A stretch of DNA of 64,000 bases from Novakomyces olei. Taxonomy: Eukaryota > Ascomycota > Novakomycetes > Novakomycetales > Novakomycetaceae. This document shows, piece after piece, positions 17,410 through 60,324 of the stretch. Position numbers and translations under genes: made by a program. The notes beneath the pieces are model-generated. The model saw only the letters and a program-made list of their open reading frames with translations. It was not told the origin of the DNA and did not search any database. Numbering within the stretch: the stretch's first letter is position 1; every line of letters starts with the position of its first letter. The stretch is from positions 2,557,055 through 2,621,054 of the forward strand of contig JADEYG010000007.1 of NCBI GenBank assembly GCA_016906335.1, given 5' to 3'.

Positions 17410-19240
17410 TCAATGTGTCTGTGCTAAGGTTTCTGTTTGCAGATTATTCAACGCGTCAAGAAATTGATTCATAATGAAACATAATTTTTCTTCTTCGAAA
17501 GATTTTGCAATAATCTGTAAACCGACAGGACAGCCCTTTTCATCGGCCGGGTTGTCTAGTATTAGTTAGTCTTAGCCATTATTTTTTATTGTTTTGTCGA
17601 AACTCACATTCGTCATAACAAAGTTTGTCTGCTTTACTGAGAAATGAGGACCGGTAAATTTTTGCGTCAAGTTTCTCATCGACTTTGCATACTGGGATGA
17701 CCCCGACGGAATAATCACACATATTCCAAAGGCCCGTATACGCAGCATAACCACCGAGTTCAGATTCGATTCTAGCTGCAGAAAAAGGCGATATAGGGCT
17801 GATTACACAATCTAAGTCGTATGATTTATAAATATGAGCAACACACTCTCTGAAACTCAAAATTTTTGCGTCTTGCTGGTACAATGTTTCCAAACCTCGT
17901 TTGCAATTACGGAATTCCTTCAAGCATCGCGGCCAAGGCTCGTCAGAGTTGGCAAACAAAACCTCGAGCGACTCTGTGGTCAATGTTTGCAAAGTTTCCT
18001 CTGCAATTGACGCTCCTTGTAAAAGAAGCTTTTCGGGAAACACGTTGTCTAGTGCAATATTATGGTCTGAAAGAGCCTGCACAAGTGTTTCTATTGCCCT
18101 TTGCACGGCCGGGACTGGCAAAACCTGGCCATTGTGTCGGATAACTCCCACCCTGAGCGGAGAAGACTTTTCAGTGAATTCAGTCCAGTATGGGCAGAAA
18201 GCATCGTTTTCTGGTTTCCTTTTAACCACTGCTTTCAACAATTCTCTTATCAAACCTATATCACGACTCATAGGCCCAATTGAAGACGGATGCAGCCCAT
18301 ATTCTGGTATGATGGAAGATACGTCGTCTTTAAATATACGTTCAGATGTTGGCTTTAGCCCGACTAGCCCGTTGTATGAGCAGGGAAATCTAATACTTCC
18401 TCCTCTGTCGCATCAGTCTTTGCTCATTTCTTGGAAAAGGCTAAATGGTCAAAAAAGCAAAACATACAGATCAGATCCAATGCCAATGAAAGATCCATAT
18501 TGGGCTATTAAGGAAGCTTCGCCACCAGATGATGCACCGACTATCATTTCAGGATTGTGAGGATTCACAACAAATCCATGTAAAGCACTTGTCATATCCC
18601 AAGACATCATGGCCGGGCTTGTTGCTGTTTTGCAGTAGATAATACCGCCTGCCTCTTCAAAAGAAATTAGTGCTCCATCGAATCGTAAAAAAATTTCTTT
18701 TTCTTGTATTTTTCCATTTATCTTTAATTGGATTTAGGTTTAAATGGCTTTTCTAACCATTTGCAAGACCAACGTACCCTCAATAAGTGTAACAATCTCC
18801 GAATCTTTAGGGTACCTTTGGCTCGCGAGTGTTACAAGACCCATTGCGCTGCTAGTACCCTGAAGACGTATGCTGTCTTTAAGCGAAACCGGAAGGCCGT
18901 GAAGGGGCCCGTATGGCTGGCCATTCTCGAGAAAGTAGTGATCTAGCTCTCGAGCTCGCCGTAAAGCTTCCTCGAATTTGATGTCGGAAAGACAGTTTGC
19001 AAGCTGATGCGCGACTGAAGCCGCGTGACAAATTGCAGATGTAACGGAGAGAGCTGTGATTAATCCCTTTTTCAGACGTCGCAGAATTAAACTTCCCGGA
19101 GCCGACACAATATCGTATTCTTCAGGCGATAAATAATCTTTAACGCTGCCTCGAGTAGAATCACAAAGCCACTCTTCCGGAATTTTTGTCAGAATTTCTT
19201 TCCGGTATTCAAAAGCTTGCGCTTGCCATCCGAGCGTCAT
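17410..19240 (-). CDS. Amidase-signature enzyme 1 (fungal acetamidase type), four exons
   Basis: Exons 19240-18778, 18654-18468, 18404-17608 and 17555-17410 join in phase to 530 residues, normal for fungal acetamidases. The amidase-signature catalytic set is complete: Lys in [10 protein letters not shown], cis-Ser in GASSGGEASL, and nucleophile Ser in GSDLGGSIRFP, the last rebuilt only after removing the 63-nt intron. The C-terminal piece DEYNPADEKGCPVGLQII is the usual family ending. It hydrolyses a carboxamide to acid plus ammonia, probably in the cytosol. It diverges from the NCS1 permease across 316 bp, so the two are probably co-regulated. The substrate is unknown. Confidence 0.9.
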
Positions 19241-19556
19241 TTTCTGATTTGCCTGAATTCATTTCGCTCCATCGCTTTTATCTAACCTGCTCACCACTAG
19301 AAGGGTCCTGCAGATAAGGGAGGGTAAACATATCCCTCTAACAAAGAATCAATAATAAAATAATAAAATATATGGAGATAAAGAAAAATATTATACCCTA
19401 TGACTTTACCCGCCATGTTCATAACTTCTTACCCGCCGGCGGGCCGCTGATAATAAGATAAAGCGTTTTCCGTGCTTATCAATAACCTCATAAAAAGCAA
19501 CGTCAAAAGCTGATGATGGACAAAGTTAAGATTGGTTTTTTGATCGCGAGCTCACA
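19241..19556. promoter_or_regulatory. Bidirectional promoter, amidase 1 / NCS1 permease
   Basis: 316-bp divergent region. It contains several GATAA cores (near 19277, 19312, 19372, 19449-19460 and 19478), suited to nitrogen GATA factors, and two copies of TTACCCGCC starting at 19406 and 19429. The second belongs to a perfect palindrome. The density of GATA cores plus the palindrome suggests nitrogen control with specific induction. Confidence 0.5.
19432..19443. promoter_or_regulatory. CCCGCCGGCGGG palindrome, UAS-GABA-like
   Basis: Perfect 12-bp palindrome. Its core CCGCCGGCGG matches the CCGCSGGCGG core of the yeast UAS-GABA element bound by Uga3 with Dal81. The adjoining GGCGGGCC (19438-19445) recurs twice upstream of the racemase gene. 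A binding site for the nearby Zn2Cys6 factor is a reasonable guess. Confidence 0.5.
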
Positions 19557-21281
19557 ATGGCACCAAAAGCACTGTTGAAACTAAAATCACGACTTGAATT
19601 GCATCCAGAGTCAGGAACATTTATCAGTAGCAGCCAGGAAACAGCTCGATGGTCTAACCGTGATCTCGATCCCATAAAGTTCAAAAATCGCAAATATGAA
19701 TGGTACCATATTGCGGGGTTCTGGATCTCTGATGGCTTTGCTGCCATCAACATGGAGAATCCGTCTAGCGCATTCTCGCTCGGGCTGAATCCAGGTTTGT
19801 CTGTGCTCGCCTGTTTTATCGCAAACTTGTTTGTTGTCGCGCCGTGTATGATATCTGGTTACATTGGTACGAAATACGGGATAAATTTTTCGGTCTTGAT
19901 GCGAGCAAGTTTCGGAATGTGGGGGTCTTATTTCGCCATCATTATTCGCGGTGTTGTCTGTGTTATATATTACGGCCTTTTGTCGTCTTTAGGGGGTCAG
20001 TGCTGTTACCTGTGTATTACTGCTATCTTCCCACAATTTGCAAATTGGCACTTGAATGCTTTTCCAGAATCAGCATACACAACTCCGCCAGAGCTTGTTG
20101 GATTTGTCGTGTTTTGGCTTGGCTCACTCCCGTTTTTGTTTATTCCAATGGCAAAGTTACGGTACATCTTCTCAATCAAAACCGTTCTCGTGCCTTTATT
20201 CTATGTCGGTCTGCTTACGTGGGCCGTCACTGCATCAGGGGGATGGCCAAAACATATCTGGCAGGCTAAAAATAACGTCACAAATGGATTCTCTGCGGCG
20301 TATGTCTTTTTCTATGCTGTCAATGCTACAATCTCCGGAAATGCGACTTATTGTTTGAATATGCCTGATTTCACTAGAAACTCGAAAAAGGCAAAAAGCA
20401 CAATGCTTGCTCAGGCTGTTACTATTCCTGTACTGATGACACTAACTGAGCTTTTAGGCACAGTTATTGCTGTAGCCTCGGTAGCAGTTTACGGAGGAGA
20501 TATCGTGTGGAATCCTGTTGAAGTACTCATGCTCTGGCATGATAGACCAGCGAAGTTTTTTGTGGGAGCCTTTTTGGCCTTTTCGATGTCTGTAACAAAT
20601 ATTATCGGTAATTCCGTTGCTTTTGGGAACGATCTCACCGCGATCTTTCCTAAGTATATAAACATTCGACGGGGCCAGCTTATTTGTGCTATCCTTGCAT
20701 TTGCTATTACGCCTTGGAATATGTAAGACTTGGCCTTGTTTTTTTTAACCTTTTTTGTCTGTTTAAACTAACTGGCTAACCTGATATATAGTCAAGCGAA
20801 AGCCACACGATTTCTTTCGTTTCTTAACGGATATACAATTTTTCTTGGACCGATCCTGGGAATTATGCTCTGTGACTTTCTTTTTGTACATAGGCAGGAT
20901 CAAATCGGCCTAGTCCAGCTTTTTCAACCGCAAGGCGTTTACAAGTATTATAAGGGATTTAATCTCCGAGCGATTGGTGCTTTTTTTATGGGATCTGGAG
21001 TGCTTTATCCTGGGCTTGTATATAACATTGGTGCGAAGGTATCAAACAAGCCAATCATCGAAATCTTCTCAATGGCTTGGCTTTTTGGCGCCACAGTTTC
21101 TGGTCTCTTCTATTATTTATTTAACCGTATCTGGCCTCTTTCATCTCAATTTTCGGATGCGATTTATAAAGATCGCGACATTGCTGCTTCTTATCTGTAC
21201 GAGGCGGATAATGCACCATATTTGGATGGGTTTGCCCAAGAGCCGATTCAGCAGGCTGTTATTACTGAAACCAAGAGTTGA
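19557..21281 (+). CDS. NCS1 permease (allantoin/uracil/hydantoin type), two exons
   Basis: Exons 19557-20722 and 20792-21281, with a 69-nt intron, give 551 residues with about 12 membrane segments. NCS1 (Fur/Dal4-type) marks include DLDPIKFKNRKYEWYHIAGF before the first segment, WISDGFAAINMENPSS, the loop GTKYGINFSVLMRASFG, GNATYCLNMPDFTR, and after the splice LSFLNGYTIFLGPILGIML. Members import uracil, uridine, allantoin, hydantoins or thiamine across the plasma membrane by proton symport. The genomic partners (racemase, amidases, carbamoyl hydrolase) point to allantoin or hydantoin-like substrates; specificity is not provable here. Confidence 0.9.
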
Positions 21282-21758
21282 ATAGATACATAGGTTTTTT
21301 CACTATTTCGTTTTAGGTCTGAAGTCTTCTATCCATTTTAAAATTTAAATCATAATTAAGTCATTTAAGTACGTAAAAACCTTTGGCTATCCATCGGTAT
21401 GATATGTGCATCGTCTAATTTTTCAAATTGTGTATAAATAAATTAAAGACTCTTGGAATAATATTATCGCTTTTATGCCATGTGCTTATCATTAATTTTG
21501 CATTACTTAGACCAAATGCTCAAGTTTAGATATGTTCCGCGCTTATGATTGGCTGGCGGGCCTAGGCGGCATATTGGCGGGCCTACGTGGGCTGTAGCCA
21601 TGATAAAAAATGCAAATAAATGTACAAAGATGAAGGAAATCAAATGTTCGATTCTTCAAAATTTTGTCTCAATTTGAACCTGATTCCTAAAAACCTAAAC
21701 AATACAGCGGCATTTAATTTTAGCTTTCAGGCATACACTGCTTCCTCCAGCTTCACAA
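21282..21758. promoter_or_regulatory. Racemase promoter with GGCGGGCCTA direct repeats
   Basis: Spacer of 477 bp. GGCGGGCCTA occurs at 21555-21564 and again at 21576-21585, 21 bp apart (about two helical turns), with GGCGGC between. The same GGCGGGCC octamer occurs in the amidase/permease promoter at 19438. A GATAAG core (GCTTATCA) lies near 21484. Confidence 0.5.
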
Positions 21759-22667
21759 ATGGTTATCAAAATTCTATTACTTAATCCGAACAGTTCACAA
21801 GTAGTCACTTGCGCTTGTGATGAGTTGGTGCGGCCCACTCTTCCTAACGACGTCAAACTAGACTCTTTATCGGCACCTCAGGACAGTGTCCCTGCTATTG
21901 AAACATTTAGCGATATCATTACCAGTGCATCTGCTACAGCAAATCTCGCAAAAACAAAACTCGATGAGTATGATGCTTTCCTCGTTTGCGGCCACTGTGA
22001 TCATCCGCTGATCTACATACTCCGTGAAGCCACAAACAAACCGGTTTGTGGAATAATGGAGGCTTCGCTGTATTCTGCTCGGACTCTTGGAACAAAGTTT
22101 GGTATTATATCTATTACTGAGCAAATTGCGGCTGCTCAGCGACAAGGTGTCACTAATTATGGATTGGACAAGTTTTGTGTTGGTGTGAGAAGCACCGGGC
22201 TTGGCGTGAAAGATCTGTCTAATTTACCGTTCGATAAAGTAATAGATTTAATGGCGGTAGCAGGGAAAGAATTGGTTTCGTTGGGAGCTGATACCTTAAC
22301 TCTTGGGTGTGCAGGAATGTCCGGGATGCAGGACGCAGTAGAAAAAGCTACTGGACCAGGAATCCCTGTGATTGATGGGTAAGTAAAAATAGAGAACCAA
22401 AAAAATAAAAATTATAAAAGAAAACACATTATAGCGCCGATAAACTGTGACATAAAATAATATGTAAAATAATATGAGGAAAAAGAAAGTCAAGAGAACA
22501 TTTCGAACAAAGAACTAGAATATGTGTTTAAAATCCAATTGAGAAATAAAGCAATTTAAAATTCAGACTAATTAGATAGCGCTGTTTGTGGAGTTCATCA
22601 TCTAATTGGACTCGTCCGAGCAGGTCTCTACACTGCGAAAAGGGGCTGTTATGGTGTTAAGAAGTAG
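21759..22667 (+). CDS. DCG1: Asp/Glu/hydantoin racemase family protein (Dcg1-like), two exons
   Basis: Exons 21759-22378 and 22580-22667 join in phase to 235 residues, close to yeast Dcg1. Both catalytic cysteine blocks are present: FLVCGHCDHPL and LGCAGMSGM. The N-terminal ILLLNPNSS is diagnostic. Exon 2 supplies the conserved tail (GLVRAGLYTAKRGCYG). Dcg1 sits in the allantoin gene cluster of Saccharomyces and is related to hydantoin racemases, which interconvert D- and L-5-substituted hydantoins. With the N-carbamoyl hydrolase and NCS1 permease of this window it would form a hydantoin or ureide route. The symbol rests on family resemblance. Confidence 0.87.
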
Positions 22668-23534
22668 AGTCTGCACACAGCTCGACAATTCTCAAATAGA
22701 GAGCTGAAAAACAGTCTTGAGGTTGATGTAATTGAGGACTGAAATTATTTGCATTCGAAACCAATTGATAACTGAATAAGCGCAGTTGCCACTTTGTATA
22801 CAAGTCTTTTCTTATCCAGACATTTCCATTTATGCAGAATTCATAAATTATAATGGCTATGGTTTCATTGTTTATTTAAATGTACAAATACAAGAACTGA
22901 ATTATATGTTTTTGATAATGTAATCACATTTGTAGCAAATCTCGATTAGCTAGCTTATTTACAACATTACGGTGGTTTAGAGACAGAACATTTAACCGCT
23001 GTCCTACCTTGCAGATCAGTGTATGTCTTATTTTACGCAATAATTAAACTCCCAATCAGACAACTATTCTTAGATTAATTGAATATATTCGATGATTCAA
23101 GCCCGCAAGTATGTCACGAAACTACTACGCAACTTTTGAGGGCATATTTTTCCCACAAGGACTGTAAAAGCGGCAGCACCAATAGCCTGAGAAGGTTGTT
23201 AAAGGTTGTGGCTAAAGCAACGAGTCACGTTATAACGGCCCGTCAGAAATGGTACAACTGTCACTTACAAATAATATAGTACTTGAACAACATGTGAAAT
23301 AACTTAATGATCTTGGATGACATGATAGCCTGATTAACCCTAATATCCGAAACAAGCGGCATCTACATTCGTGTATTCGGAGATTAAAATGACGTGGAAG
23401 GCGTATATACGAGATTAAACGTTGTAGCTTGGCCAATCGGATTTAGGTTTCGGAGATCCATTCTGGTGACCTGAGCTTGTATAAAAAAAGTGCGGGGTGA
23501 CGGGCCGCTCTTTTCAAAATCATCATTAAAAGAA
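22668..23534. other. Spacer before reductase pseudogene
   Basis: About 870 bp, AT-rich, no coding signal recognised. Short frames at 23079-23279 and 23230-23436 show no domain. Confidence 0.4.
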
Positions 23535-24543
23535 ATGGCTGGAGATTTGGTACTTGTAACAGGAATTTCGGGCTTTATTGCCCTTCGATTGGCAGATGAT
23601 CTGTTGTCTCATGGTTTCAGAGTCAGAGGGACAGTAAGATCAGCTAATAAGGCAGAAAAAGTACGCGGATTATTTCCGCGCTACGATTCTTCGCAGCTGG
23701 AATTTGCGATTGTGCCGGACGTTGCCTCGGAAGGCGGATTGGATGAAGCAGTGAAAGGAGTCAAATACGTTTGCCATACAGCGTCGCCTGTCAATTTTTC
23801 CATAAAGGACAATGAAAAGGATTTGCTGATTCCGGCTTACAAGGGAACGACCAATGTTTTAGCAGCGGCGGCCAAGGAGCCTGGCGTCAAACGGTTCATT
23901 GTGCTGAGCAGTTTTGCGTCAATTATTGATCTCTTCAAGGGTTACCGCAAGGGCTATACTTACACGGAAGCCGACTGGAATCCTGCCACTTATGACGAAG
24001 CAAAGGTTTCAGACAACCCTGGATTTGTGTATTGAACTTCAAAGACAGTAGCAGAGAAGGCAACTTGGGAATTTATTGAGCAGAAAAAGCAAAACTTTGA
24101 CTTGGTCGCGATTTGCCCACCATTGGTTTTTGGACCACCTCTGGAAGGATCGGCGGAAGACAAGTCTCATCTCAACGTATCTACCGCCGGTGAGTGGGCC
24201 TTGTTTAATGGATCATTTAAAAAGACACCATCTGTGGCCTTCCCTGTCTGGGTGGATGTCCGTGACGTCGCAAGGGCCCATGTTTTGGCTCTGACAAGTG
24301 AAAAGGCTAGCAATCAGCGATTCTTGCTCATAGCTAATGAGTTCCACAAATCAGCAGATTGTGGATTGTGCACGCAAGCATTTTGCGAACGATAGCCGGA
24401 TCAAATTGCCCGAAGAGCGATCAGACGAACCTGACTTGTCCGAATTCTACGATGTTGATGCCTCCGAGGCACCGCGCTTACTCGGGTTTGAGTACACTGG
24501 TCTTGAACAGAGTGTCATTGACACAATTAAAGTGCTTGCTTAG
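23535..24543 (+). pseudogene. Broken NAD(P)-dependent aldehyde/ketone reductase (GRE2 / dihydroflavonol reductase-like)
   Basis: Extended short-chain reductase of about 335 codons starting at ATG 23535, with VLVTGISGFIALRLADDLL, HTASPVNFS, VLSSFASI and a C-terminal GFEYTGLEQSVIDTIKVLA. Two lesions are visible. A TGA stop falls one codon after the catalytic tyrosine (FVY, stop, TSKTVAEK), inside the YxxxK motif itself. A one-base shift near 24340 moves the frame so that the family sequence continues as NQQIVDCARKHF in another frame. The total is one base more than a multiple of three. Either a recent pseudogene or two sequence errors; the nonsense at the active site favours a pseudogene. Confidence 0.8.
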
Positions 24544-24684
24544 TAGGACACTAAGGTTAGAAATAAGATACAACATGCTGCAGTGTTTTTAGATTTCAGA
24601 AGAAAGATTTTACATAAGAAATAAGAAATTTGTTTTTGTTAGCTGGCGTGAATAATACAATTTGGTTCCACTCTGATGTACTTT

Positions 24685-27222: not shown

Positions 27223-27706
27223 TTTTCTGTCCGCTAGTTGTGCATCAAATGTAGCGCGTACAGCATTTGCTTATTTTTGAACAGGCATAAACAAATATAA
27301 TGCATAGCTTCATTACAAACCCCACAGTAGCATTGCAGGCAAATAGACCACATTGGACTCTTAAATTTGTTGAACGCACCCCCGATGCACTCCGACACTT
27401 TAGGGAACGGAAGCTTATCGCTCAGTTTCGGAATTTCCGATACTATATCGGCAGTCCCGGTAGAAATACTTGTTATCAGCCGATACCGGTCAGTGCCACC
27501 TGTCAGCTACTGCGAACGTTCGCTACAAATTTGCGTGACCTTTTGATATCGGGGCGCGAACGGCGGGCGATTTAGCTCATTAAAATTCGCCACTCAGCGC
27601 ACTCTTTTGTTCACGGACAGACATTTAAAGCCTTGCTCGTTTCACTTTTACAAACAGTCTCTCCTGCGAAACGTATAGTATTGCGATAACAAAAGGCGCA
27701 CTGGAT
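27223..27706. promoter_or_regulatory. Divergent promoter, amidase 2 / SnoaL-like gene
   Basis: 484-bp divergent region carrying two CGG-N5-CCG elements (27429-27439 CGGAATTTCCG and 27449-27459 CGGCAGTCCCG). It marks the transition to the GC-richer cluster on the right. An open frame across it at 27300-27575 has no domain support. Confidence 0.5.
27429..27459. promoter_or_regulatory. Pair of CGG-N5-CCG inverted repeats
   Basis: CGGAATTTCCG at 27429 and CGGCAGTCCCG at 27449, starts 20 bp apart, about 250-280 bp upstream of the SnoaL-like gene. CGG triplets in inverted repeat with fixed spacing are classic Zn2Cys6 dimer sites. Confidence 0.5.
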
Positions 27707-28894
27707 ATGTCTGCAGCTGAACAAGATACGGCTAAAAGCTCGTCGGCAAAGACGAAGCTTCGAGATGGTTATGCCGTTGTTGGCAGCAATGGCGTCGGTG
27801 ACGACGATGCGGTAATACAAGTCGAGCGTCACGACTATGCGGACGTAGCCCCTACAAAGAGACCGCGTGTCCAATCTCTCGAGGGATTCGATGACGTTTA
27901 CACGGACATTGTGGACTATATTGTGCGCTGCACACACAAAATCTGGGACGAACGGGACATTGGCTTGATCTACACGCACTATACGCACAACTGTGTGTTG
28001 TACGGTACGATGCGAACGGTTTATGATCGCGAGTCCGTCGTTCGGGACACGATCCAGCGCCTTGTGTCGTTTCCCGAACGGCGCGGGATGGCGACCCACG
28101 TTTTATGGCGCGGAAATGACAAGGATGGGTTTTACACTTCTCACCTTGTGACTGGCTCTGGCCGGCACACGCAATACGGTCATTTTGGCCCACCCACAGG
28201 CCGTGCCTTTGTATCTCGCACTATAGCGGACTGCATGATTTACCGAAACAAAATTTACCGCGAATGGGTAGTGGCCGACAATATGGCCATTGTTAAACAG
28301 CTCGGCTTGGATCCGAACCCGATCGCCCTGGAATCAGCACGTGACTTGTACACTCGCGGCATGGAGACCATTGATATTGGTGAAAATCGGCGAATTGTCG
28401 GCCAACAATTGCCGCCGGACGAAGTCGATACCTCGTTTGCTCACAACGAAATCGAGGTCGAAACTTTGAAATGGCTGCATGAAGTATGGAACCGTCGTAT
28501 GTTTGGTGGCATTCAAAAGATTTATGCTGTAAACGCTCAGTATCACGGACCTAATATGGTCGAATTGTTTGGATCAGCGGCTGTTCTGCATCAACATTTA
28601 GCCCTGCTCGGATCTCTTCCGGACGGTGTCTATATGCCGCAGCATATCTGTTCGAACCCGTGTGACGAAGGCGGGGTCAAAGTAGCCGTCCGCTGGATCA
28701 TTGAAGGTCACCTCCTGGGTTACGGAATTCTAGCATCTCTCGGAAAACCCGAAGGTCAACGGATCCAGATCATGGGCATGACGCACTACCATTACAAGAA
28801 CGGACGCATTGTGGACGAATGGAATGTTTATGACGAGCTCTCGATACTCATGCAAATTAAACTTGCTGAGCTTGTTCGGCAAGGCAAAGATTGA
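27707..28894 (+). CDS. SnoaL-like (NTF2-fold) protein with two domains
   Basis: Single exon, 395 residues. After a charged N-terminus of about 60 residues there are two alpha+beta NTF2-fold (SnoaL-like) domains, about 65-215 and 240-390. The first contains YGTMRTVYDRESVVRDTIQ, HVLWRGNDKDGFYTSHLV and GRAFVSRTIADCMIYRNKI; the second contains VWNRRMFGGIQ, HQHLALLGSLPDG and MTHYHYKNGRIVDEWNVYDE. SnoaL-like proteins include polyketide cyclases, hydratases and uncharacterised catabolic enzymes. My recollection is that close relatives are bacterial, and the coding GC is higher than in the left half, so transfer is possible. It heads a run of genes sharing CGG-N5-CCG sites. The reaction is unknown. 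Confidence 0.75.
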   Translation: MSAAEQDTAKSSSAKTKLRDGYAVVGSNGVGDDDAVIQVERHDYADVAPTKRPRVQSLEGFDDVYTDIVDYIVRCTHKIWDERDIGLIYTHYTHNCVLYGTMRTVYDRESVVRDTIQRLVSFPERRGMATHVLWRGNDKDGFYTSHLVTGSGRHTQYGHFGPPTGRAFVSRTIADCMIYRNKIYREWVVADNMAIVKQLGLDPNPIALESARDLYTRGMETIDIGENRRIVGQQLPPDEVDTSFAHNEIEVETLKWLHEVWNRRMFGGIQKIYAVNAQYHGPNMVELFGSAAVLHQHLALLGSLPDGVYMPQHICSNPCDEGGVKVAVRWIIEGHLLGYGILASLGKPEGQRIQIMGMTHYHYKNGRIVDEWNVYDELSILMQIKLAELVRQGKD

Positions 28895-29790
28895 AAATAA
28901 AAGTAGGACAGCAAGAACCCAATTGGAGTCGAGTAGATTAATTTTAAACTGCAGTTAATTACATTATTTTTACCGGCACTAGTATGCTTGGACAATTTGG
29001 TATGGTAGAATTTTAGTTGCACGTACTGTTTAGCGTCGTTGCTGTTATTCTGAGTTTGTGGGCCAAATGCTAAATTTTGGAGTTGGCAACTAATGTTCCG
29101 ACCACGTAAATTTAGACTAATGCTTGAGAGGGTATTTTGGTTTGTCGAATTGGTAAATTCGACTCGTATCTTAAATCACTCAACGTTTTGCGTGGATTCT
29201 TAATGCAGCAGTTTTTCTCATAAGAAAAATATAAGGTTGAGGTCTACGTTCAGAATTTTTAAGTGGAACTTAAAATTTATTTTAAAAAATGCCAACTTGA
29301 AGACTGCCACCTTATATTGGAAACCAATACTTTTGATCTTTGAAACTTATGATAAGCCTCCTTAACAGAATGTATTCATCCACTGCCCGCCTTGTGCTTG
29401 ACAGCTGGTTGATTGTATTACTTTTTCCGATACGGATCTTATCACAGACTTGGATATCAATTCAATCTATGAAATAATTATTCTTGTTTTTATCTTGTTC
29501 TAATTATAATTGTACCCCACCCGCCCTTTGCGCTGTAGCAACTCTGTGATTGGTCAGATCTCATTTACTATCAATATTGTGTCTTGCCAAATTAATATGA
29601 GAGACTCTCAAGGGACGGCTTTGCCGATGAAGCCGTGTCGGGCACGCTACGTGGGATCCCGCTTATCGTGCCCAAGCCGGTTGATAAAGACATGCAAAAA
29701 GCTATTATATTGTGTGCAATCGGCCAAGGAGCCACTTTCCTCAGCTTTGCTCTCAGCTAGTATCAAAACTTCAACAATTAGCAAAGTGAA
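28895..29790. promoter_or_regulatory. Spacer and aminotransferase promoter
   Basis: About 900 bp. The left part is AT-rich and empty. A CGG-N5-CCG element (CGGCTTTGCCG, 29616-29626) followed by ATGAAGCCG lies 165 bp before the aminotransferase ATG. The overlapping open frame 29510-29863 has no domain and runs into the real gene in another frame, so it is not called. Confidence 0.5.
29616..29626. promoter_or_regulatory. CGG-N5-CCG element upstream of aminotransferase
   Basis: CGGCTTTGCCG, extended as TTGCCGATGAAGC, a 13-bp string that is identical at 36767-36779 in the glucosidase/carrier promoter. Confidence 0.55.
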
Positions 29791-31517
29791 ATGGCCCATC
29801 CTGACGTGGCCGGCTCCCATGTACTTCATCGCTCGTTTGCCGATCGCCCACTTAAAGTCGTAGCGGCGCGTGGCATTCGACTTATTCTTGAGTCCGGTGT
29901 TGAGGTTTTAGATGCTTCCGCTGGTCCCTCGGTCTCCTGTCTTGGCCATTCGAGACCGGACGTAGCTGAAGCAGTTGCTCAGCAGCTGTCGGCCGTGCCT
30001 TATGTTTATTCTGGCGCGAGATTTACGGCATCTGCAAACGAAGACCTGGCCGAGCATGTCCTTCGAGAGCGTCCTGGCGGGCTGACTAAGGCAATTTTTG
30101 TGAATTCAGGCAGCGAGGCCACTGATGCTGCACTCAAGCTTGCGTTCCAGTACTGGCGCGAGTCGGATGAACCACAAAAACGGTTCGTTATAGCGCGAAA
30201 GCAAAGTTACCATGGAAACACGATCGGTGCACTCTGCGTGTCGGGCCACGAATCGCGTCGTGCTTACTATAGCGATTGGATGTCAAACAACGTACGATTC
30301 GTTGACCCTTGTTTCGCTTACCGGTTCAAACGCGCCGGAGAATCCGATGATGCTTATGTAGCGCGATTGTCAAATCAATTGGAGCGCGAAATCTTGCAAC
30401 TTGGACCGGAGAATGTTGCTGCTTTTATTGCGGAAACCGTGAGTGGTACCACACTAGGCTGCGCTGCTGCTGTGCCGGGCTACTTTAAAGCCGTTCGAGC
30501 TCTTTGCGACAAGTACAATATCCTTCTCATCTTGGACGAGGTATGCTTGATTAATGAGATAAATTACATTGAACTAGGATCTAATATTTCTAGATTATGT
30601 GTGGTATGGGTAAAACTGGGACAATGCATGCCTGGCAGCAGGAAGGCATTCGTGGACCAGATATCCAAACTATTGGCAAAGCATTGGGCGGTGGATTTAT
30701 CCCTCTGTCGGCCGTTCTTTTGCACGAAAAGATTTTCAATGTCTTGGCATCAGGAACCGGCACACTTGCGCATGGCCATACATTTCAGGTATGATCATTT
30801 CATTTCCTTTAATTTGATTCCTAATTAATTTAAACCGATTGAGTACCCTTTGTTCACTTTTGATATTTCTGTTTTATTTTAAATTGTTCAGCTAGCTATT
30901 TATTTGTCTTTAAATCGATTAACTGTACTTTTATGTGCAAATCGTTTCTCACATGTCAGGCTCATCCAGCGGCATGCGCTGCGGCACTGGCGGTTCAGAA
31001 GGCCGTTGCTCGAGAAAATTTGATAGAGCGAGTCGGTAAAATGGGCGAAGTTCTAGGTCGCCTACTGCAAACCCACATTGCACCTCTTCCTCTCGTCGGA
31101 AATATTCGCGGCCGTGGCCTCTTCTGGGCTGTTGAATTTATGCTTAACGGGCCGAGCCGAATCCCGCCCCCACGGGAGGCTAAATTCTGCGATCGGGTTG
31201 TAGACAGAGCTCTACGTCTTGGCCTCAATATTCTGGGGAATTTGGGGGTGACTGGGCAAGTTTATGTGGACCATGTTATTGTGTGCCCGCCTTATATTGT
31301 GACAGAAGAGGAGTTGCAAAGTATCGTCATACTGCTCGCACAAGCTATTGAGCAGGCCTCTGATGAGCTGCGCCATTGGACTATGGGCAACATGGACGCG
31401 CCCGTTGAGGAAAAGCAGTCTGCCAATGTTAATGGCTTCGCAAAGACTAATGGCTTCGCAAAGACTAATGGGCTTGCCAAAATCAACGGGTTTACGAGCC
31501 AAGAGACTGCTTTGTAG
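29791..31517 (+). CDS. Class III PLP-dependent aminotransferase, three exons
   Basis: Exons 29791-30540, 30594-30788 and 30960-31517 join in phase to 500 residues. Fold-type I class III marks are SVSCLGHSRPDVAEA, FVNSGSEATDAALKLA, SYHGNTIGAL, ILLILDEIMCGMGKTG across the first splice, and the PLP lysine in TIGKALGGGFIPLS; exon 3 starts with AHPAACAAALAV. Such enzymes move amino groups from omega-amino acids or amines to pyruvate or 2-oxoglutarate. The C-terminus adds a short tandem repeat (NGFAKT copies, about 31432-31493) outside the catalytic fold. It shares a promoter motif with the SnoaL-like, cupin/regulator and glucosidase/carrier genes. Confidence 0.92.
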
Positions 31518-31804
31518 ATCAGACTCATTGTTTATATTCGAATAAATAAATAATTAATACATCGTTGCTTTTGATATATTTAGTTGGAGCTGATTATTCG
31601 CTTCTCTACCCCTCAATAAAAAAAATTTAATTATATCAACCGTAACTATGTTTACGCTAAGGACCAGATTTCAATCATATTAGTTTTTCATTTATTTCAT
31701 TTATTTGTTTGCACGTGACCGTGCAGAGCTTGATCGCAAACTAATGCGCCCTAGGGTTTATGACCCTAACCCTAAATCTAAACTTGTCTTAAAGTGATCG
31801 CGTG
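31518..31804. terminator. Convergent 3' region with telomere-like motif
   Basis: AT-rich convergent spacer between aminotransferase and cupin genes. It contains CCCTAACCCTAAA at 31764-31776, a two-repeat telomere-like motif also seen at other sites in the window. Confidence 0.4.
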
Positions 31805-32377
31805 CTAGCGCACGAACTGATCCGCAAACCCTGCGCCCAGTCCGACCGCCTCGTAGTGTTTTCTGGCAGCTTGTAATTTACTGAAAACATCCTCGACACC
31901 AACGGGATTGCCGTCCGGGTCAACGTAAATGTATGCTCCAGTGACGTGGAAAAGGGTTACCATCTCTTCCACGTCATTTGGAACCTGCAGTGTATGAATA
32001 TCGCCTGGAGGCTCAAACGCGTACCCGCCTGGAGTGGCCCACCAGTCGTGCTCGAGGTAGTGCCAGCGTCCACGCAGTACAATAGCGTGCACGGGTCCGG
32101 CATGTCGGTGACGCGATAAAATGCCCGACTTTCTGACACGCAAAATATTGACAAAATAGCCCTGGGAAACGCTGAAACAGAGTGGTCTGAAATGGACTCC
32201 AGGGCTTTGCGGAACCCACAGCCTTTCATCGCACTCAATATCCATTGCACCTGGCACAACTAGATCTTCAAGTACATTGGGCAGCGGATCACCTCTATAC
32301 GCAATGGCTTTACTATCGCCGCGGGCCGATGCCGCAGCATTTTCGGCTTGAGAAACAGTAGAATCTGCCAAAGTCAT
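31805..32377 (-). CDS. Cupin, 2,4'-dihydroxyacetophenone dioxygenase (ChrR-like) family
   Basis: Single exon of 190 residues from ATG 32377. A cupin barrel is visible with metal ligands in SRHRHAGPVHAIVLRG and the second motif PPGDIHTLQVP. The block LEHDWWATPGGYAFEPPG and the tail DPDGNPVGVEDVF are characteristic of the DAD-like family, iron enzymes that cleave aryl ketols, and of ChrR-type cupins. Most relatives I know are bacterial. It diverges from the Zn2Cys6 factor across 348 bp that contains two CGG-N5-CCG elements. An oxidative ring or ketol cleavage step in the cluster is plausible, not shown. Confidence 0.82.
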   Translation of the reverse strand: MTLADSTVSQAENAAASARGDSKAIAYRGDPLPNVLEDLVVPGAMDIECDERLWVPQSPGVHFRPLCFSVSQGYFVNILRVRKSGILSRHRHAGPVHAIVLRGRWHYLEHDWWATPGGYAFEPPGDIHTLQVPNDVEEMVTLFHVTGAYIYVDPDGNPVGVEDVFSKLQAARKHYEAVGLGAGFADQFVR

Positions 32378-32725
32378 TGTGTAACGAAATGCGGCGGCAG
32401 CTCATTGATGCGCTACGTCTGGTTTTTGTACCCATACTTTTCTGCTCTTTTCTCTCGCTACCGGTTCCTTCCTTGCAGCAATTGAACCGTTGATCAGTTT
32501 CTCCAATAGAATTGCTTCAATTACAAAACAGTGCAAACACGCAATCTCGGCCCCGCGCCACAAGCGCTAACAAGTAATCAACGCTATCGCGATGTCAGCA
32601 ACCTGTCAATCTAGTTTTCGGCAAAGCCGAACTAGATATCGGAAAACCGGTAAAGCCGACATCACCCGATCTTGACAACATCTTATCCCACGGATTGGAT
32701 TCTGGAGAAAAGTACCAAACAATTA
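32378..32725. promoter_or_regulatory. Divergent promoter, cupin / Zn2Cys6 factor
   Basis: Holds CGGCAAAGCCG (32619-32629) and CGGTAAAGCCG (32648-32658), both CGG-N5-CCG with starts 29 bp apart, 70-110 bp before the regulator ATG. They suggest autoregulation of the factor and control of the cupin. Confidence 0.55.
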
Positions 32726-34374
32726 ATGGCTCTCGCGGTGCCAGCCAAGGGCGGCTATACTCGACAGCGTCAAGGATGCTTGACTTGCCGTCAAAGGTTA
32801 GCAGCCTTGCTTTACTCATCCTAAACTGTCTTGAAGGAAAAAAAAATGCGATCGACGGTACCCTGTTTGCGGTCATTGTGTACGATTGAACTTGGCTTGT
32901 GAACACGAAGAACCAAGGCGCGTTGTTTGGCGGAAATCTGACGCTACTAAAGAACCAATTTGTTCGGCTGGACAGCCGAGCGAACGGTCCCAGGTCCATG
33001 TGGCTCGAATTTACAATGCTGTTGATGACGCAGTATGGCATGGACTTGAAGGCGATTTGTTAGCCAGCCGCCGAGCCATACTGCGCTACTACACGACTGT
33101 ATTTGTTTACATGCTGTCTACAAACTCGGAAAATAACAGTTTTTTGTCGGGTAAGCCTTTTTACAGACGAGAATTTTATTAAAATTATTATAGTAATGGT
33201 GCCGATGGCATTTGAGTGCCAGGCGCTTATGCAATCTCTGGTTGCATGGGCGGCTTCACATTTAGCAGCACGGGACCCTGTGCTTGAGCCTTTAGCGCTG
33301 CAACACCGTGGAACAGCTCTACAAGCAATGAAGGTAGCAGTCGAGGCCAATGCGTTATCGGCAGAGATGTTTCTCGCCATTGCTATGGCGCTCTGCTCTA
33401 TGGAGTGTATTTCCGGTGGCGGTGGCTCATGGTACTGCCATTTACTGGGTGGAGCAGTTGCCCTCGGCTTCCTCGGTCGGGATACCGAGGCCGTTGTCGG
33501 CCCGGCCACGACTACACGCCGGTCTATCGTACGACTGCCCACGTTTGAAGGGGGATGGCTGCTCCGCAACTTTGCCTATCACGATATTCTTATGAGCATC
33601 ACGCTTGATTCTGGGCCTTTAGTATCAGGGTATTACTGGACGGCAGACGACGGAGAAGACGGGTCATGTGGTACCGGAAAAGCCGACGCGTACTTTGGAC
33701 TTGCTTCCCGAATATTGTACCTGACAGCACAAGTCAGCGAGCTGAATTATAGTTTTGCTGAGCAAAGTGGTTTTCGCAGTGGGAGGAAAAGCAGCGGCTC
33801 GGGGAATCGATCCGTTTGCACAGCGCAACGGGTTCCGCAGGGGCTTGTCTTAAGCTGCACACCGAAAACCACACAAGAATCGGCTTCACTTAGCAGAGCC
33901 CGGGAGATTGAGACGGAACTGCTCTTATGGAGCTGCCCGGCCGAGTACAATGAAACCGCGCTTCAATTACTGGCTTTTTCGTATCGCAGTGCTGCACTTT
34001 TGCATCTTTATCGGACACTGAGGCGCTATTTTCCCGATTTAAAGACAGAATTGGAGACAAAGATGGCCCAGCATGTAACGCACATCTCTGAAATAGTTTT
34101 GCAGATGAGCGAAGGCTGCTTGGCAGAATGTACTTTACTTTTTCCGCTCTTTATGGCCGGCGGCGAGGCGGAAGACCCAGAGCAGGTGCGGGTTATCCGT
34201 GAAAAGCTCGTCTCTATTAATAAATGGCGGCGGTTCCAGAACGTTGATCTTGCTCTTGAAGTGCTGGACGAGCTTTGGCGGCTAAGACGGGCCGGGTCAC
34301 TGGGGCCAGACGGCACTAGACTGGATTGGCTACACATTACAAAGTCTCGCAATATTCAGCTGGCTATTTCTTGA
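32726..34374 (+). CDS. Zn2Cys6 transcription factor with Fungal_trans_2-type domain, three exons
   Basis: Exons 32726-32796, 32837-33150 and 33194-34374, separated by 40- and 43-nt introns, join in phase to 521 residues. The binuclear cluster is split by intron 1: CLTCRQR joins RKKCDRRYPVCGHCVRLNLAC, giving the correct C-X2-C-X6-C-X5-C-X2-C-X6-C spacing. The remainder resembles the Upc2/ARCA-like C-terminal domain (VAWAASHLAARDPVLEPLAL, a CP-rich middle, then YRSAALLHLYRTLRRYFPD). It sits in the centre of the SnoaL-aminotransferase-cupin-glucosidase-carrier group and next to two CGG-N5-CCG sites. It is the best candidate for pathway-specific regulator. Confidence 0.87.
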
Positions 34375-34576
34375 AAGTCTCAATAGTATAGTGACATTTA
34401 AAAGCAAATTCAGCAAGGAGTATTAGGTGCGCATTAATTCTCATGTTTATTGGTGCGAGTAATTGAAGGTTCAGTAAGTGTGATTAATATGTTCTAGATT
34501 TTTATTGGTTCAGGTCTATGTTTAGCTATTCTAATCTCAAACTTATCCCCCTTTAACAGATCTGATAGATATTGCA

Positions 34577-36372
34577 TTATGGATTAACAAGGTATACACG
34601 GCCCTCAAACGGAGCCAATGAATCTGACTTGTTATCCCGTACCGTAGACATAATCTGCTGCAGATCCACACTCGCACCACTGGGCAGAGTGAGCTGTTCC
34701 GCGCTAGGTTTTTGAAAAGGTAAATGCTTTGCGGTAAAGTTCAGCACAACCAGAGCTTTGGATCGTGCAAAAGACTCCTTAACAAAAATGTGCAAGTCTG
34801 GATGTTCTGGTGCAACATCCTGATAGTCGCCATAGACAAAAAAATCCTTGTACTTGCGTCGTAGTGCAATAGCCTTTCGCCAAAATGCAAATACGCTATC
34901 CGGATCATCAAGCTGGGAAGTCACATTGATTTCCTTTGCTAGAGGATGGGGCTTCATCCACGGCTCTTTGACCTCCTTGCCTGCTGCCTCGGCTGCTTCG
35001 GAAAAGCCGCCATACTTTTTATCGGACCACGCCACCGGGATTCGGGTATGATCCCGGGCAAAGTAGGCGAGCGCATTAAAGGCCTTGTCCAGTGCCAGCG
35101 CATTGTCGGCACCGTACTTTTCCTTGATTGAAGTAATGTGTCCCACGCTCCCGATATCCAGATAGTTTTCCAGCGGGTATTCTGCCTTTGGCGCGTTTAT
35201 ACTCCCAATTTCCTGGCCCTGGTAGATGTATGAGTTCCCGTAAGACAGGCCTGCATGAGCGCCAACAGTTTCGCACTGCGGGCGCGGAATTCTGGACTAT
35301 CATCCGCGAAGCGGCTGACGGACCGGGCCTGATCGTGATTTTCGAGAAACACGGTACTCCACCCGTCCGTATTGCGAATAAGCGATTGTGTCGCATCGAT
35401 GGCGCGTTTAAACACGGGCAGTGTAAAGTCGTGCGGCTCGGCATCGTACGTTATAGCCTTGTTCATGCCGACGGAAACGACGTCAAATTGAAACACCATA
35501 TTTAAAGCGTTCGCTTTAGCGCTTACATACTCGAGAACATGTCGCGGATCCGGTGTAGTGGAAAGTTCTCCGACAGTTATGGCGCCGTACGCGTTTAAAA
35601 CACGGCTCATTTCTTCCAGGTATTCAAACATGCGAGGCCCATTGCACACAAGTTTCCAAGCTGGCTGATAAGGAGCGCCCACGTCTACAATGGGCGCATC
35701 GGGAAACGTGGGCGGTTTACTGTACATGTTTACCGTATCCACACGGAACCCGTCAATCCCACGTTTGAGCCAAAACTCCATAGCCGATGCGTAGATTGCC
35801 TGTCGGGTTTCGGCATTGTCCCAGTTCAAATCTGGCTGCTCAATGGCAAACACGTGGAGGTAGTACTCTTGCGTGGCTTCATCCCACTCCCAGGCACTGC
35901 CGGGTCCCCAGGCGGCCCGCCAGTTATTCGGCGGCAGCCGTTCTCCGGTGGCGGAGTACCGGGCAGGACGCCAAATATACCAGTCACGCTTCGGGCTGTC
36001 CTTACTGCTCCTTGACTCCTTGAACCAAGCGTGCTGGTCGGACGTGTGATTAATGACAAGGTCCAGCATAACCTTGATGCCCCGTGCATGAGCCTCGCGG
36101 ACAAGATCGTCCACGTCCTGAAGGTCTCCGTACAGCGGATCGACACGTTCGTAATTCGAGATGTCATAGCCCATATCGACACGCGGACTCTCGTACATAG
36201 GGCAGACCCATACGACGTTGACGCCGAGCGTTACGAGATAATCGAGCTTGCTCGTAATACCGCGAATGTCTCCGACCCCATCGCCATTAGAGTCGTAAAA
36301 CGAGGACGGGTAGACCTGATACACTATCGCCTCTTTCCACCATTGCCGCGTGTGAGTGCTAAAGGCCGACAT
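34577..36372 (-). CDS. GH13 alpha-glucosidase / oligo-1,6-glucosidase with single-base frameshift
   Basis: ATG 36372 (WWKEAIVYQVYPSSFYDSNGDGVGDI). The catalytic set is intact in the first frame: nucleophile Asp in GFRVDTVN, acid/base Glu in TVGELSTT, and FLENHDQAR. After LALMQACLTGT the frame fails near 35232 and the family sequence YIYQGQEIGSINAPKAEYP continues in another frame to the stop at 34577. One extra base restores about 598 residues, a normal maltase length. The sequence reads GGAACTCATAC where families have a TPYIYQGQE block, so loss of one C is the simplest explanation. Either a recent pseudogene or a base-calling slip. It would hydrolyse maltose or isomaltose in the cytosol, fed by the divergent carrier. 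Confidence 0.85.
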
Positions 36373-36944
36373 GTCGGTGGCAGCGGCAGCAACGCGGCCA
36401 AACCGTCGGGAACGCCATGCCTTAAATTCGCGCTCGTTATCGCTGCCACTCGTAAATCTCTAGCCAATCAACATATACAGCGTATAGGGTTAGGGTTAAA
36501 TGTTTTCAATATTCGGTAAAACCGCAATTGTTTCCCGATATAGTCTCGGCCATCGCAGAATATATGAGCGATAAGGCGCGAAGGGCGGTGCCCACGCAGC
36601 GCTGATTGCACCTGTCAAAAACCAGCCAGGCTAATGTGAGATAACGTATCTCACGTCAGCCGAGTGCTGACGTGTACAAAGCGTCTCTATCTCGCGGCGC
36701 ACATTCGAATGGCGTATGCCCACTTATCGCGCGCGACACACCTGGCCAATCGCGTTCCATCGGCATTGCCGATGAAGCACCGGGTTCTCTTATCCACACG
36801 TTATCAGGAGAAAATAATGGGGAGATAAGAGTACTTGCAGGAGAAAATTCAACATGACAGGTGAACTGCGCGCGGCTTTAAATTGACGAGCAAAGACCGC
36901 ATTGTACGACAACTTTTAGAGATCGCTATACCTTTTATTACAAA
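36373..36944. promoter_or_regulatory. Divergent promoter, glucosidase / MFS carrier
   Basis: 572 bp containing CGG-N5-CCG at 36395-36405 (CGGCCAAACCG) and 36761-36771 (CGGCATTGCCG), and a telomere-like AGGGTTAGGGTTAAA at 36486-36500. The 36761 copy shares TTGCCGATGAAGC with the aminotransferase promoter. Confidence 0.5.
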
Positions 36945-39057
36945 ATGTCTACTTCAACAGCTGACGAAATTTCCGGCACTGCTCTTGGGCAAAGTTTTTC
37001 TTCGGAAAAGAAAAGCCCGAAGTCGAAGACGAGCAGGCCAAGGCCAACGTAGTCTACGGCACCGTCCATGTTGCCGACGAGTCTGAACTCTCGTACTTTG
37101 AACGCAAAGCCGCATTGATCAATGAGTGAGTGTTCCAATCTTGGTTCAAAATTTTACCAGCTTTTTTGGCCAGAGTTATTATTCTTTTTTATTTTTTTTT
37201 CCTTAGCCTTCAATCAAGCCGAACCTTTGATTCTTGAAATATTGTCTATGTCTATTCCTATCGAAGCTTTCGGCTAACATGTATAGCGAGCTCGACAAAT
37301 TCGGGTTTGGCAGGTACCAGCAATGCATTTGGCTGCTCTGCGGATTTGGGTATTTTTTAGATCTTGCCTGGTCACAGGGCGTTGGCCTCATGGCAACGGC
37401 CGTATTGTAAGAAAACCGTTGTTAGCTTTTACTTACGCATTTGAAAGCCAGGAAATGAACGTTCCGGCTGGCCGGCAAGGCCTCATCTTCACCTGCGCAA
37501 ATGCCGGACTAGCGTATGTTAACCCTAACCCTCGATTAAAAATCTTAACAGTATTAGGATTGGTGCCTTTTTCACAGGTATTCTCACAGACATTGTCGGG
37601 CGCAGATGGGCTTTCAACATTACGTGCCTCATTACTTCCGTATTTGGCATGCTTCTTGTAAGTTTATACCCAAACCAATTTGAACAACTTGCTAACTTTT
37701 CAAGGCTGCCAGTAAATTCAACTATGGAGCTATTTGCGGCATTTATTTCTTGTCCTCTATCGGTCTTGGTGGAAACATTCCTATTGACGCTACAATCGCC
37801 CTTGAATTTATGCCACCTAGCCGCCGGTACTTGGTATCCCTGCTGAGCATGTGGCAGCCAATTGGCGTCGTTGTTGCTTCGGCTATTGCTTACGGCACGG
37901 CTGCCCGGTACCGATGCGGGGCCGATCTGCCTTCTTGTCGGGCTGTGAGCGAAGGCGAAGCTTGCTGCTCTGTCGCCAGCAACATGGGATGGAGATATAT
38001 GGTTATTGTGATTGGTGCAATGACTCTCTTCATTTTTTTTGCTCGCTTCCTAATTTTCCGATTTTACGAGTCGCCAAAGTTTCTTGTAAGCAAAGGCCGC
38101 GAGCAAGAGGCAATCGACGTTTTGCACAAAATCGCTAAATTCAATCGTGCACCGGCTCCTACTCTCACTATGGAACATTTCTACGAAATTGATCGCGCAA
38201 TGGGTATTGACCGTAATGCCCTTAAAGCCACAGTTGATGCCAAGGGAGCTTTTACGCGCGCCGTGAACGACATCAAGTTTCTTAAGGGTCTTTTTGAAAC
38301 GAAAATGACGTGTTTTCTTTTCGTTCTTCTCGCTTTCACCTATATGGTAAGACTTGATTTAGTTTCCACGCCTTTTTACAAACGTTGTGATTCACAATTT
38401 CGTTTAAATTAATATTAAATCCAGAAACAATTATCTGCTCTTTTATTTCTAAATTTGTCAATATAATGTCGTTATTATTATATTTTGTTTAGCTTTATTA
38501 TACTAACATCCCAGGGCAACTACTGGTCCTTTAATTTGGCCGGGTCTTTCCTTCCAATTATTCTGCTTCGCAATAACGTGAGCTCAGGCGCTACAACTGT
38601 CACTGAAACGTATCGTGAATATGTGTATATTTACTTGCCCGGAATTATTGGTGCAATTATCGCTCTTTTCTCTGTTCAGCTGCCTTTGATTGGGAGAAAA
38701 TGGTCGCTCGTTATTTCTGCTGCTTTACAGGGTCTGGCAATGGCCATGTACACACAAGTGAAAACTACGGCAGGCTACGTAGGGCTCAACGCTTTCGAGT
38801 ACATTATGCAGACTTATTTTAACGCTGTACTTTACGCATCGGCACCGGAGCTTTTCGATACGCCATACCGTGCCAGTGCTAGCGGTATGTTGTCCTGCCT
38901 TGGCCGAATTGCCGGGATTGTGGCGCCTCTGGCAGGACAGCGATACATTGGACAAGGCAGCCAGGGAGTCTTGTGGCTCGGTGCTGGCGGTATTTGGCTG
39001 TCCAGTATTCTCATGGTATTTTTGCCCATCGAGATGCGAAACAGACAGATGTATTAA
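36945..39057 (+). CDS. MFS carrier, six exons, probable frameshift in exon 1
   Basis: Exons 36945-37125, 37287-37406, 37448-37513, 37558-37657, 37705-38346 and 38515-39057 give about 550 residues if one base is added in the T-run near 36994. Without it, MSTSTADEISGTALGQSF leads to a stop while the family sequence (KPEVEDEQAKANVVYGTVHV, then YFERKAALINDELDKFGFG) lies in another frame. Later exons read cleanly: MNVPAGRQGLIFT, GILTDIVGRRWAFN, GLGGNIPIDATIALEFMP, then YMGNYWSFNLAGSFLP across the last splice. It is a 12-segment MFS protein of the SV2/metabolite-porter kind. The substrate is unknown; a sugar is suggested by the divergent glucosidase. Intron 3 contains TTAACCCTAACCCT. Confidence 0.8.
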
Positions 39058-60287: not shown

Positions 60288-60324
60288 TAGTGTTAGGGTT
60301 ATGTAACTAACCCTAACCCTAACT
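60288..60324. repeat. Head-to-head telomere-like junction
   Basis: GTTAGGGTTA, then TGTAAC, then TAACCCTAACCCTAAC. G-rich telomere-type repeats face C-rich ones, the orientation left by end-to-end joining of telomeres. It marks the inner boundary of the repeated subtelomeric units. Confidence 0.7.

Follow-up and report, generated by a model that had tools for sequence, protein, structure and literature searches.

In the subtelomeric region of the fungus Novakomyces olei we identified a gene cluster in which every promoter gap carries inverted CGG triplets separated by five bases (CGG-N5-CCG). The eight sites are putative operators of a dimeric Zn2Cys6 activator, and we consider it probable that they serve as such and that the activator is the 521-residue PF11951 protein encoded within the cluster itself. 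The stretch of DNA analyzed (referred to as the window) comprises 64 kb with a GC content of 43% and is located at the extreme end of contig C7 in a genome of 14.34 Mb. The cluster consists of genes for an amidase, a SnoaL-like protein, a class III aminotransferase, a cupin, the regulator, an alpha-glucosidase, and a carrier of the MFS type. Four promoter gaps with a total length of 2,301 bp serve these genes: amidase/SnoaL, aminotransferase, cupin/regulator, and glucosidase/carrier.

Eight CGG-N5-CCG sites are distributed over all four promoter gaps

An initial annotation of the window had listed seven intergenic matches to CGG-N5-CCG. The word was read at all seven positions, but the count was incomplete, as an eighth site was found at 36514. 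The divergent gap between the amidase and the SnoaL-like gene (27223-27706; ATGs at 27222 on the minus strand and at 27707 on the plus strand) harbors site 1 (27429-27439; CGGAATTTCCG, a long palindrome) and site 2 (27449-27459; CGGCAGTCCCG). Site 3 (29616-29626; CGGCTTTGCCG) is located 170 bp upstream of the aminotransferase ATG. Sites 4 (32619-32629; CGGCAAAGCCG inside TCGGCAAAGCCGA) and 5 (32648-32658; CGGTAAAGCCG) precede the ATG of the regulator gene by 102 and 73 bp, respectively. The glucosidase/carrier gap contains three sites. Site 6 (36395-36405; CGGCCAAACCG) is probably located in the glucosidase leader, since it lies only about 28 bp upstream of the ATG; site 7 (36514-36524; CGGTAAAACCG) is the one that had been missed, and site 8 (36761-36771; CGGCATTGCCG inside ATCGGCATTGCCGAT) is positioned approximately 180 bp upstream of the carrier ATG. 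The centers of the sites are 28-546 bp away from the gene starts that they possibly serve. The assignment to four promoter regions was correct, except that the first gap also serves the divergent amidase gene, which had been omitted.

Among the 16 half-sites, CGG is preceded by T in 10 and followed by C in 9, and the middle is mostly A/T, resulting in a consensus of about TCGGCAWWGCCGA. Palindromic symmetry is highest for the sites at 27429 and 36761, at 9 of 11 arm positions each. Several sites had been described as extending to TCGGC-N3-GCCGA; such sites do exist, but the window contains only two, with starts at 32618 and 36760. As claimed, two promoters have an exact word in common, TTGCCGATGAAGC at 29621 and 36766. 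This word occurs three times in the genome; the third copy, on contig C8, was rejected as independent evidence, as C8 represents the same locus assembled twice.

The sites are enriched in the promoter gaps

Genome-wide, 2,261 CGG-N5-CCG words were counted, corresponding to one per 6.3 kb. At this rate, 0.36 sites are expected in the four promoter gaps, where 8 occur (Poisson, 5e-9). In 3,000 dinucleotide-preserving shuffles, scored for 63 triplet arrangements (inverted, everted, and direct, spaced by 0-20 bp), the mean was 0.33 and the maximum 5, and a count of 8 was not reached in any arrangement. A second run of 2,000 shuffles gave a maximum of 3, and in none of them was a site present in all four gaps. 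Because the motif had been chosen after looking at the sequence, all 26,982 triplet pairs seen with gaps of 0-20 bp were ranked as well. CGG-N5-CCG, which is present in all four gaps, came first (8 vs. 0.44; p = 2.3e-8, corrected 6e-4), and the dyads on ranks 2 and 3 are extensions of CGG-N5-CCG itself. Inverted triplets at other spacings (0-25 bp) yielded 0-4 matches in the same gaps; everted CGG pairs occurred at most three times at any spacing of 0-25 bp (once at N4), and direct CGG-N5-CGG pairs once. The three gaps of the cluster without promoters (convergent or 3'; 1,029 bp) are devoid of CGG-N5-CCG.

The coding DNA from the SnoaL-like gene to the glucosidase gene contains 6 CGG-N5-CCG in 6,933 bp as compared to 2-7 matches at other spacings. 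This is background, in agreement with the previous view that coding matches are of the chance type. In the whole window the word occurs 20 times; the other combinations of spacing (0-15) and orientation that were counted range from 3 to 19. Outside of 27429-36771 there are six matches, of which one is located in an exon of the amidase gene (26130) and the other five in reading frames of at least 100 codons. For comparison, 17 other genome loci with a total of 168.3 kb were sampled, dropping the 17 extended sites that had been used to choose them. These loci harbor 31 CGG-N5-CCG, of which 8 are located in 48.75 kb of DNA outside open reading frames (ORFs; non-ORF DNA has frames of <100 codons only). 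This ORF mask is crude and labels four of the eight promoter sites of the cluster as ORF through chance open frames crossing them, and the case for enrichment therefore rests on the genome rate and the shuffles. The extended word TCGGC-N3-GCCGA occurs 34 times in the genome vs. 20 times for the reversed control and is, thus, weak evidence on its own. An equal frequency of CGG-N5-CCG throughout the genome, set beforehand as the outcome that would speak against a regulon, was looked for and not found.

An alternative explanation is that CGG triplets cluster by chance in GC-rich promoters and were selected by a reader seeking pairs. The spacing was, in fact, chosen after looking, the gaps contain 64 CGG/CCG triplets vs. 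52 in the shuffles, and six N5 pairs occur in coding parts of the cluster as well. The tests, however, allow for the choice of spacing, of orientation, and of any dyad, and the low numbers at the other inverted spacings were obtained in the same DNA. We regard this explanation as highly improbable and close to refuted.

Single CGG-N5-CCG sites outside of the cluster occur at background rate. Two clumps of TCGGC-N3-GCCGA, at C9:1374970 and C3:1565437, were considered as regulons and rejected: all of the 13 and 9 N5 matches, respectively, are located in frames of at least 100 codons. Many of these matches are spaced by 12 or 24 bp, and the clumps are probably coding repeats. Runs of CGG-N5-CCG in long reading frames at L009:4460-5271 and L010:4915-5591, many of them spaced by 12 or 24 bp, are probably coding repeats that mimic operators.

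The cluster encodes a Zn2Cys6 regulator with a recurrent neighborhood

A Zn2Cys6 gene of 521 residues had been predicted at the middle of the group, and this was borne out. The gene (32726-34374, plus strand; introns at 32797-32836 and 33151-33193) encodes a protein of 521 amino acids with Zn_clus and Fungal_trans_2 (PF11951) domains, the latter matching with an E value of 4e-48. The zinc cluster, a six-cysteine CLTCRQRKKKCDRRYPVCGHCVRLNLAC at the N-terminus of the spliced protein, is similar in sequence to those of Lac9 and Ppr1. Zn_clus scored 28.5 bits (cut-off 21) in the unspliced genome, a partial match as an intron cuts the domain. There are 56 Zn_clus matches genome-wide, three of them within the window. 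Viral contigs scanned with the regulator gave no match.

The neighbors of homologous genes were compared by eye among the best 120 of 191 and the best 120 of 7,711 matches, many of which are without locus tag. Among the matches listed, five public models (P0133, P0140, P0165, P0171, and P0353) comprise aminotransferase and regulator as one protein; for P0133, P0140, P0165, and P0171, identity to the window amounts to 66-70% in the aminotransferase part and 41-43% in the regulator part. All five are probably fused gene models, yet they demonstrate that the two genes are adjacent. Regulator and aminotransferase homologues with consecutive tags were listed for Diaporthe amygdali, Pestalotiopsis fici, Verticillium albo-atrum, Fusarium lateritium (two records), and Fusarium phalaenopsidis, and with tags three apart for Penicillium angulare and P. 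brevicompactum. This recurrent neighborhood links the factor to the cluster without recourse to the sites. Homologues of the SnoaL-like protein and the aminotransferase, again among the matches listed, have tags two apart in Cordyceps javanica (005139/005141) and four apart in Pseudogymnoascus (07885/07889). A SnoaL homologue and a regulator homologue are listed with contigs of the same length (27,513), which is a hint of linkage only. Several regulator homologues carry the name UGA3-like in public annotation. In the zinc cluster region, 24-35 of 44 residues are identical to eight homologues; half-site recognition is, thus, probably common to these proteins, while the spacing need not be.

GATAAG is a second word shared by the promoter gaps

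GATAAG, the classical site of nitrogen GATA factors, ranked next in the four promoter gaps among the words independent of CGG-N5-CCG. It occurs 9 times vs. 1.3 expected from the non-ORF background, is present in all four gaps, and a count of 9 was reached in none of 2,000 shuffles. Each gap has one copy at a distance of 9-35 bp from a CGG pair, all on the minus strand: 27414-27419 (9 bp from site 1), 29662-29667 (35 bp from site 3), 32682-32687 (23 bp from site 5), and 36789-36794 (17 bp from site 8). The remaining copies are located at 29351-29356, 36570-36575, and 36824-36829 on the plus strand and at 29438-29443 and 36723-36728 on the minus strand. The genome has 10 matches to GATA fingers.

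Evidence for and against a local regulon

Based on the enrichment of the sites, their presence in all four gaps, the central position of the Zn2Cys6 gene, and the recurrent regulator-aminotransferase neighborhood, the interpretation of the cluster as a regulon is supported in part. The designation as "self-contained" was too strong, given a kinase promoter outside of the cluster with three N5 sites, the two other Zn2Cys6 matches in the window, and the GATAAG words pointing to an additional nitrogen regulator.

A number of observations weigh against the proposed regulon. Three CGG-N5-CCG are located 15-70 bp before a protein-kinase gene (C4:153758-153812; L110:4759-4813), the product of which has C2 and kinase C-terminal domains, and hence the word is not restricted to the cluster. 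The closest aminotransferases listed (Trichoderma barbatum, 78%; Cordyceps javanica, 76%) had no regulator neighbor among the matches listed. The regulator listed for T. barbatum shares its contig with a second aminotransferase of 64% identity, suggesting that the neighborhood may be that of a wider family. Of the cluster genes, only those for the regulator, the aminotransferase, and SnoaL were seen to be linked in other fungi. The linker following the zinc cluster, which usually helps to set the spacing in this class, is identical to the eight homologues at only 3-7 of 43 residues, so that the N5 spacing cannot be predicted from the protein. With regard to GATAAG, the p value of 9.5e-6 amounts to 0.26 for 26,982 dyads and is not significant after Bonferroni correction; its weight therefore rests on prior knowledge of the nitrogen site. 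Elsewhere in the non-ORF DNA of the window GATAAG is somewhat more frequent than in the comparison sample (17 in 20.2 kb vs. 28 in 48.8 kb), one copy is located in a convergent gap, and its closeness to the N5 sites is weak (P = 0.018 for the largest gap, 0.037 for the sum).

The sites might instead be operators of another Zn2Cys6 factor, the local factor using different sites or none. Candidates are at hand in about 55 other zinc-cluster matches in the genome, two of which lie in the window, and the C4 kinase gene provides a multi-N5 promoter outside of the cluster. Within the window, however, sites in promoter gaps are confined to the cluster, with no non-coding N5 site near its two other Zn2Cys6 matches, and the regulator recurs beside the aminotransferase family. 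We therefore consider control by another factor unlikely, albeit with an appreciable residual chance.

Genes of the cluster and their chromosomal setting

Gene content was assigned by Pfam profile matches, and several of the cluster genes have introns. The amidase gene (PF01425; 24688-27222, minus strand) has several exons; its model is incomplete and the 3' end approximate. The SnoaL-like protein (PF07366; 395 amino acids) is encoded at 27707-28894 on the plus strand, followed by the aminotransferase gene (29791-31517, plus strand; 500 amino acids) with three exons and introns at 30541-30593 and 30789-30959. The cupin (PF12973, Cupin_7; 190 amino acids) is encoded at 31805-32377 on the minus strand. 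The glucosidase belongs to GH13 (34577-36372, minus strand), and the gene of the MFS carrier (36945-39057, plus strand) comprises several exons in a model that is incomplete. As read from the sequence, each of the latter two genes has a one-base frame break, near 35231 and near 37011, respectively. Both are probably assembly indels, as a single-base difference is present near each of these positions in the copy on contig C8.

Contig C8 (29.7 kb) is a redundant copy of window positions 33666-64000; over 30.4 kb the two differ by 49 mismatches and 663 gap openings, and in the part that was recounted, 46 substitutions were found vs. 737 inserted or missing bases. The chromosome end is present twice in the assembly, as the end of C7 and as C8. 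A further one-base difference between C8 and the window is located at 36391, beside site 6 and outside of its triplets. The window terminates in telomere-like GGGTTAGTTA repeats, which together with subtelomeric repeats span 60310-64000 and place the cluster about 25-39 kb away from the chromosome end. We take the GGGTTAGTTA repeat to resemble the telomere repeat of Yarrowia-type yeasts.

Other genes of the window were recorded as well. On the side of the cluster facing the chromosome interior (17582-24545) there are nitrogen-type genes encoding an amidase, a member of the cytosine/purine permease family, an Asp/Glu/hydantoin racemase, and a dehydrogenase/epimerase. A protein of 1,092 residues with AMP-binding, PP-binding, and NAD_binding_4 domains is encoded at 6606-9881; this layout is presumably that of a carboxylic acid or aminoadipate reductase. 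Close to the telomere (57418-59928) lies a gene for a fungal protein kinase (PF17667) of 837 residues.

Relatives of the cluster genes in fungi and bacteria

The SnoaL-like protein is 77% identical to a protein of Trichoderma velutinum and about 70-74% identical to proteins of Rhizobium, Sinorhizobium, and Devosia, while the aminotransferase is most similar to the T. barbatum protein mentioned above. An origin from filamentous fungi is plausible from these similarities. The glucosidase resembles yeast alpha-glucosidases; in sequence comparison, its best solved relatives are BaAG2 and the yeast oligo-1,6-glucosidase IMA1.

Bacterial neighborhoods were surveyed in the best 80 of 110 stretches encoding a SnoaL relative, with neighbors grouped by similarity and named from one representative each. 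A HisD-like dehydrogenase was found in 59 loci, a LacI-type regulator in 54, an amidase and a short-chain dehydrogenase/reductase (SDR) in 31 each, and an MFS carrier in 25. Three of the 80 loci encode a glucosidase 45-46% identical to that of the window at a distance of about 1-6 kb from the SnoaL relative. An aminotransferase relative near the SnoaL relative (within the flank, E 1e-6) was found in none of the 80. The neighborhoods suggest a catabolic role of the cluster. In enterobacteria, the SnoaL relative occurs in a recurring block, probably a catabolic operon, together with genes for a LacI-type regulator, a HisD-like dehydrogenase, an SDR, an MFS carrier, and an HpaI-like aldolase; one further gene of this block has no NCBIfam match and was guessed by eye to be SnoaL-like.

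These relationships bear on the possibility that the regulon is only partial, with amidase/SnoaL, aminotransferase, and cupin/regulator being coregulated and glucosidase/carrier belonging to a sugar regulon that uses a similar word. The closeness of the glucosidase to yeast enzymes and the restriction of linkage in other fungi to regulator, aminotransferase, and SnoaL would fit this division, as would the finding that in two of the three sites of the glucosidase/carrier gap the flanking T is missing from one or both sides. On the other hand, this gap has as many as three N5 sites, one of them with the longest unbroken palindrome arms, it has TTGCCGATGAAGC in common with the aminotransferase promoter, and the three bacterial loci pair a SnoaL relative with a related glucosidase. 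A partial regulon thus appears improbable, and inclusion of glucosidase and carrier in the local regulon is the reading that we follow below.

Comparison with known Zn2Cys6 systems

Ppr1, Put3, and Gal4 bind inverted CGG triplets as dimers at spacings of 6, 10, and 11 bp, respectively, and carry another family of regulatory domain. They resemble the system described here in the inverted CGG and in similar zinc clusters but differ in the spacings. The site of the Neurospora crassa regulator CLR-1 is said to be CGG-N5-CCG, though no paper printing this word for CLR-1 turned up in the literature searches. In an excerpt of PMC5468973, the site tabulated for CLR-1 is CGGN5CGGNCCG. CLR-1 is a Zn2Cys6 protein with a 5-bp gap next to CGG as in our cluster; in contrast, it is a cellulose regulator, and its tabulated site is not simply CGG-N5-CCG.

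According to passages of PMC4360782, TerR of the Aspergillus terreus terrein cluster recognizes a CGG pair with a 5-bp spacer that is preceded by T in high-affinity sites and occurs in most promoters of the cluster. The same passages give the pair as a direct repeat, CGG-N5-CGG, and inverted half-sites as unrecognized by TerR (PMC4360782). A local Zn2Cys6 regulator, the 5-bp spacer, and the T before CGG are features shared with the cluster in N. olei, in which the pair is, however, inverted. The TerR-type direct repeat is not a feature of the four gaps, where a single direct N5 pair occurs.

The Uga3 regulon of Saccharomyces cerevisiae, which functions in catabolism of gamma-aminobutyric acid, includes a class III aminotransferase gene among its targets and is additionally subject to general nitrogen control; the sites of Uga3 consist of everted triplets, and the UGA genes are not known to form a cluster. 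The combination of a zinc cluster regulator and an aminotransferase gene (UGA1 transaminase) is common to both systems, whereas the triplets in N. olei are inverted with 5 bp between them and the enzymes are SnoaL, cupin, amidase, and glucosidase. Everted sites at the Uga3 spacing are not a feature of the four gaps. In a passage of PMC12186702, Uga3 is described as recognizing CGG triplets upstream of UGA4, UGA1, and UGA2. Literature searches for the inverted 5-bp CGG word returned, among the listings and passages covered, a single paper in which it is printed (PMC5215518) and no bound site; in that paper, the word is one match in the cdr1B promoter, and the binding sequence is left open.

A model for the regulon and its implications

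Taken together, a local regulon of a known kind is well supported, with an inferred identity of the factor that would read the sites. Our proposal is that the subtelomeric cluster, some genes of which resemble those of filamentous fungi, forms a pathway-specific regulon gated by nitrogen. In this model, a dimer of the regulator would bind both inverted CGG triplets in each promoter gap. If an inducer, which might be a substrate or an intermediate of the pathway, is present, the genes for amidase, SnoaL-like protein, aminotransferase, cupin, glucosidase, and carrier would be switched on together, and the regulator gene would be activated by its own product through sites 4 and 5. The GATAAG words beside the sites would subject the cluster to general nitrogen gating and confine its activity to conditions in which good nitrogen sources are lacking. 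Inferred features of this model are the binding of the PF11951 protein to the sites, an activating and not a repressing action, control of its own gene, the inducer, and the gating by nitrogen.

A more far-reaching scenario, which we put forward tentatively and regard as possible rather than likely, is that a complete circuit of regulator, CGG-N5-CCG operators, and catabolic genes was assembled beside a yeast telomere. A regulator-aminotransferase-SnoaL module acquired from filamentous fungi, with a SnoaL gene closely related to genes in rhizobial and Devosia neighborhoods, would have been joined to resident amidase, glucosidase, and carrier genes, which would have been captured by gaining the same operator and a GATA site. 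If this holds true, the extent of an expanding, portable regulon would be delimited by its operators.

Zn2Cys6 factors constitute the largest class of fungal regulators, and to our knowledge the binding site of most of them is unknown. For the PF11951 factor of N. olei, a likely site could be read from the sequence alone. The set of sites offers a direct test of which genes act together in a subtelomeric cluster of possibly mixed origin. A further prediction is that in Diaporthe, Fusarium, and other fungi, homologous pairs of regulator and aminotransferase would control their neighboring genes via CGG pairs.

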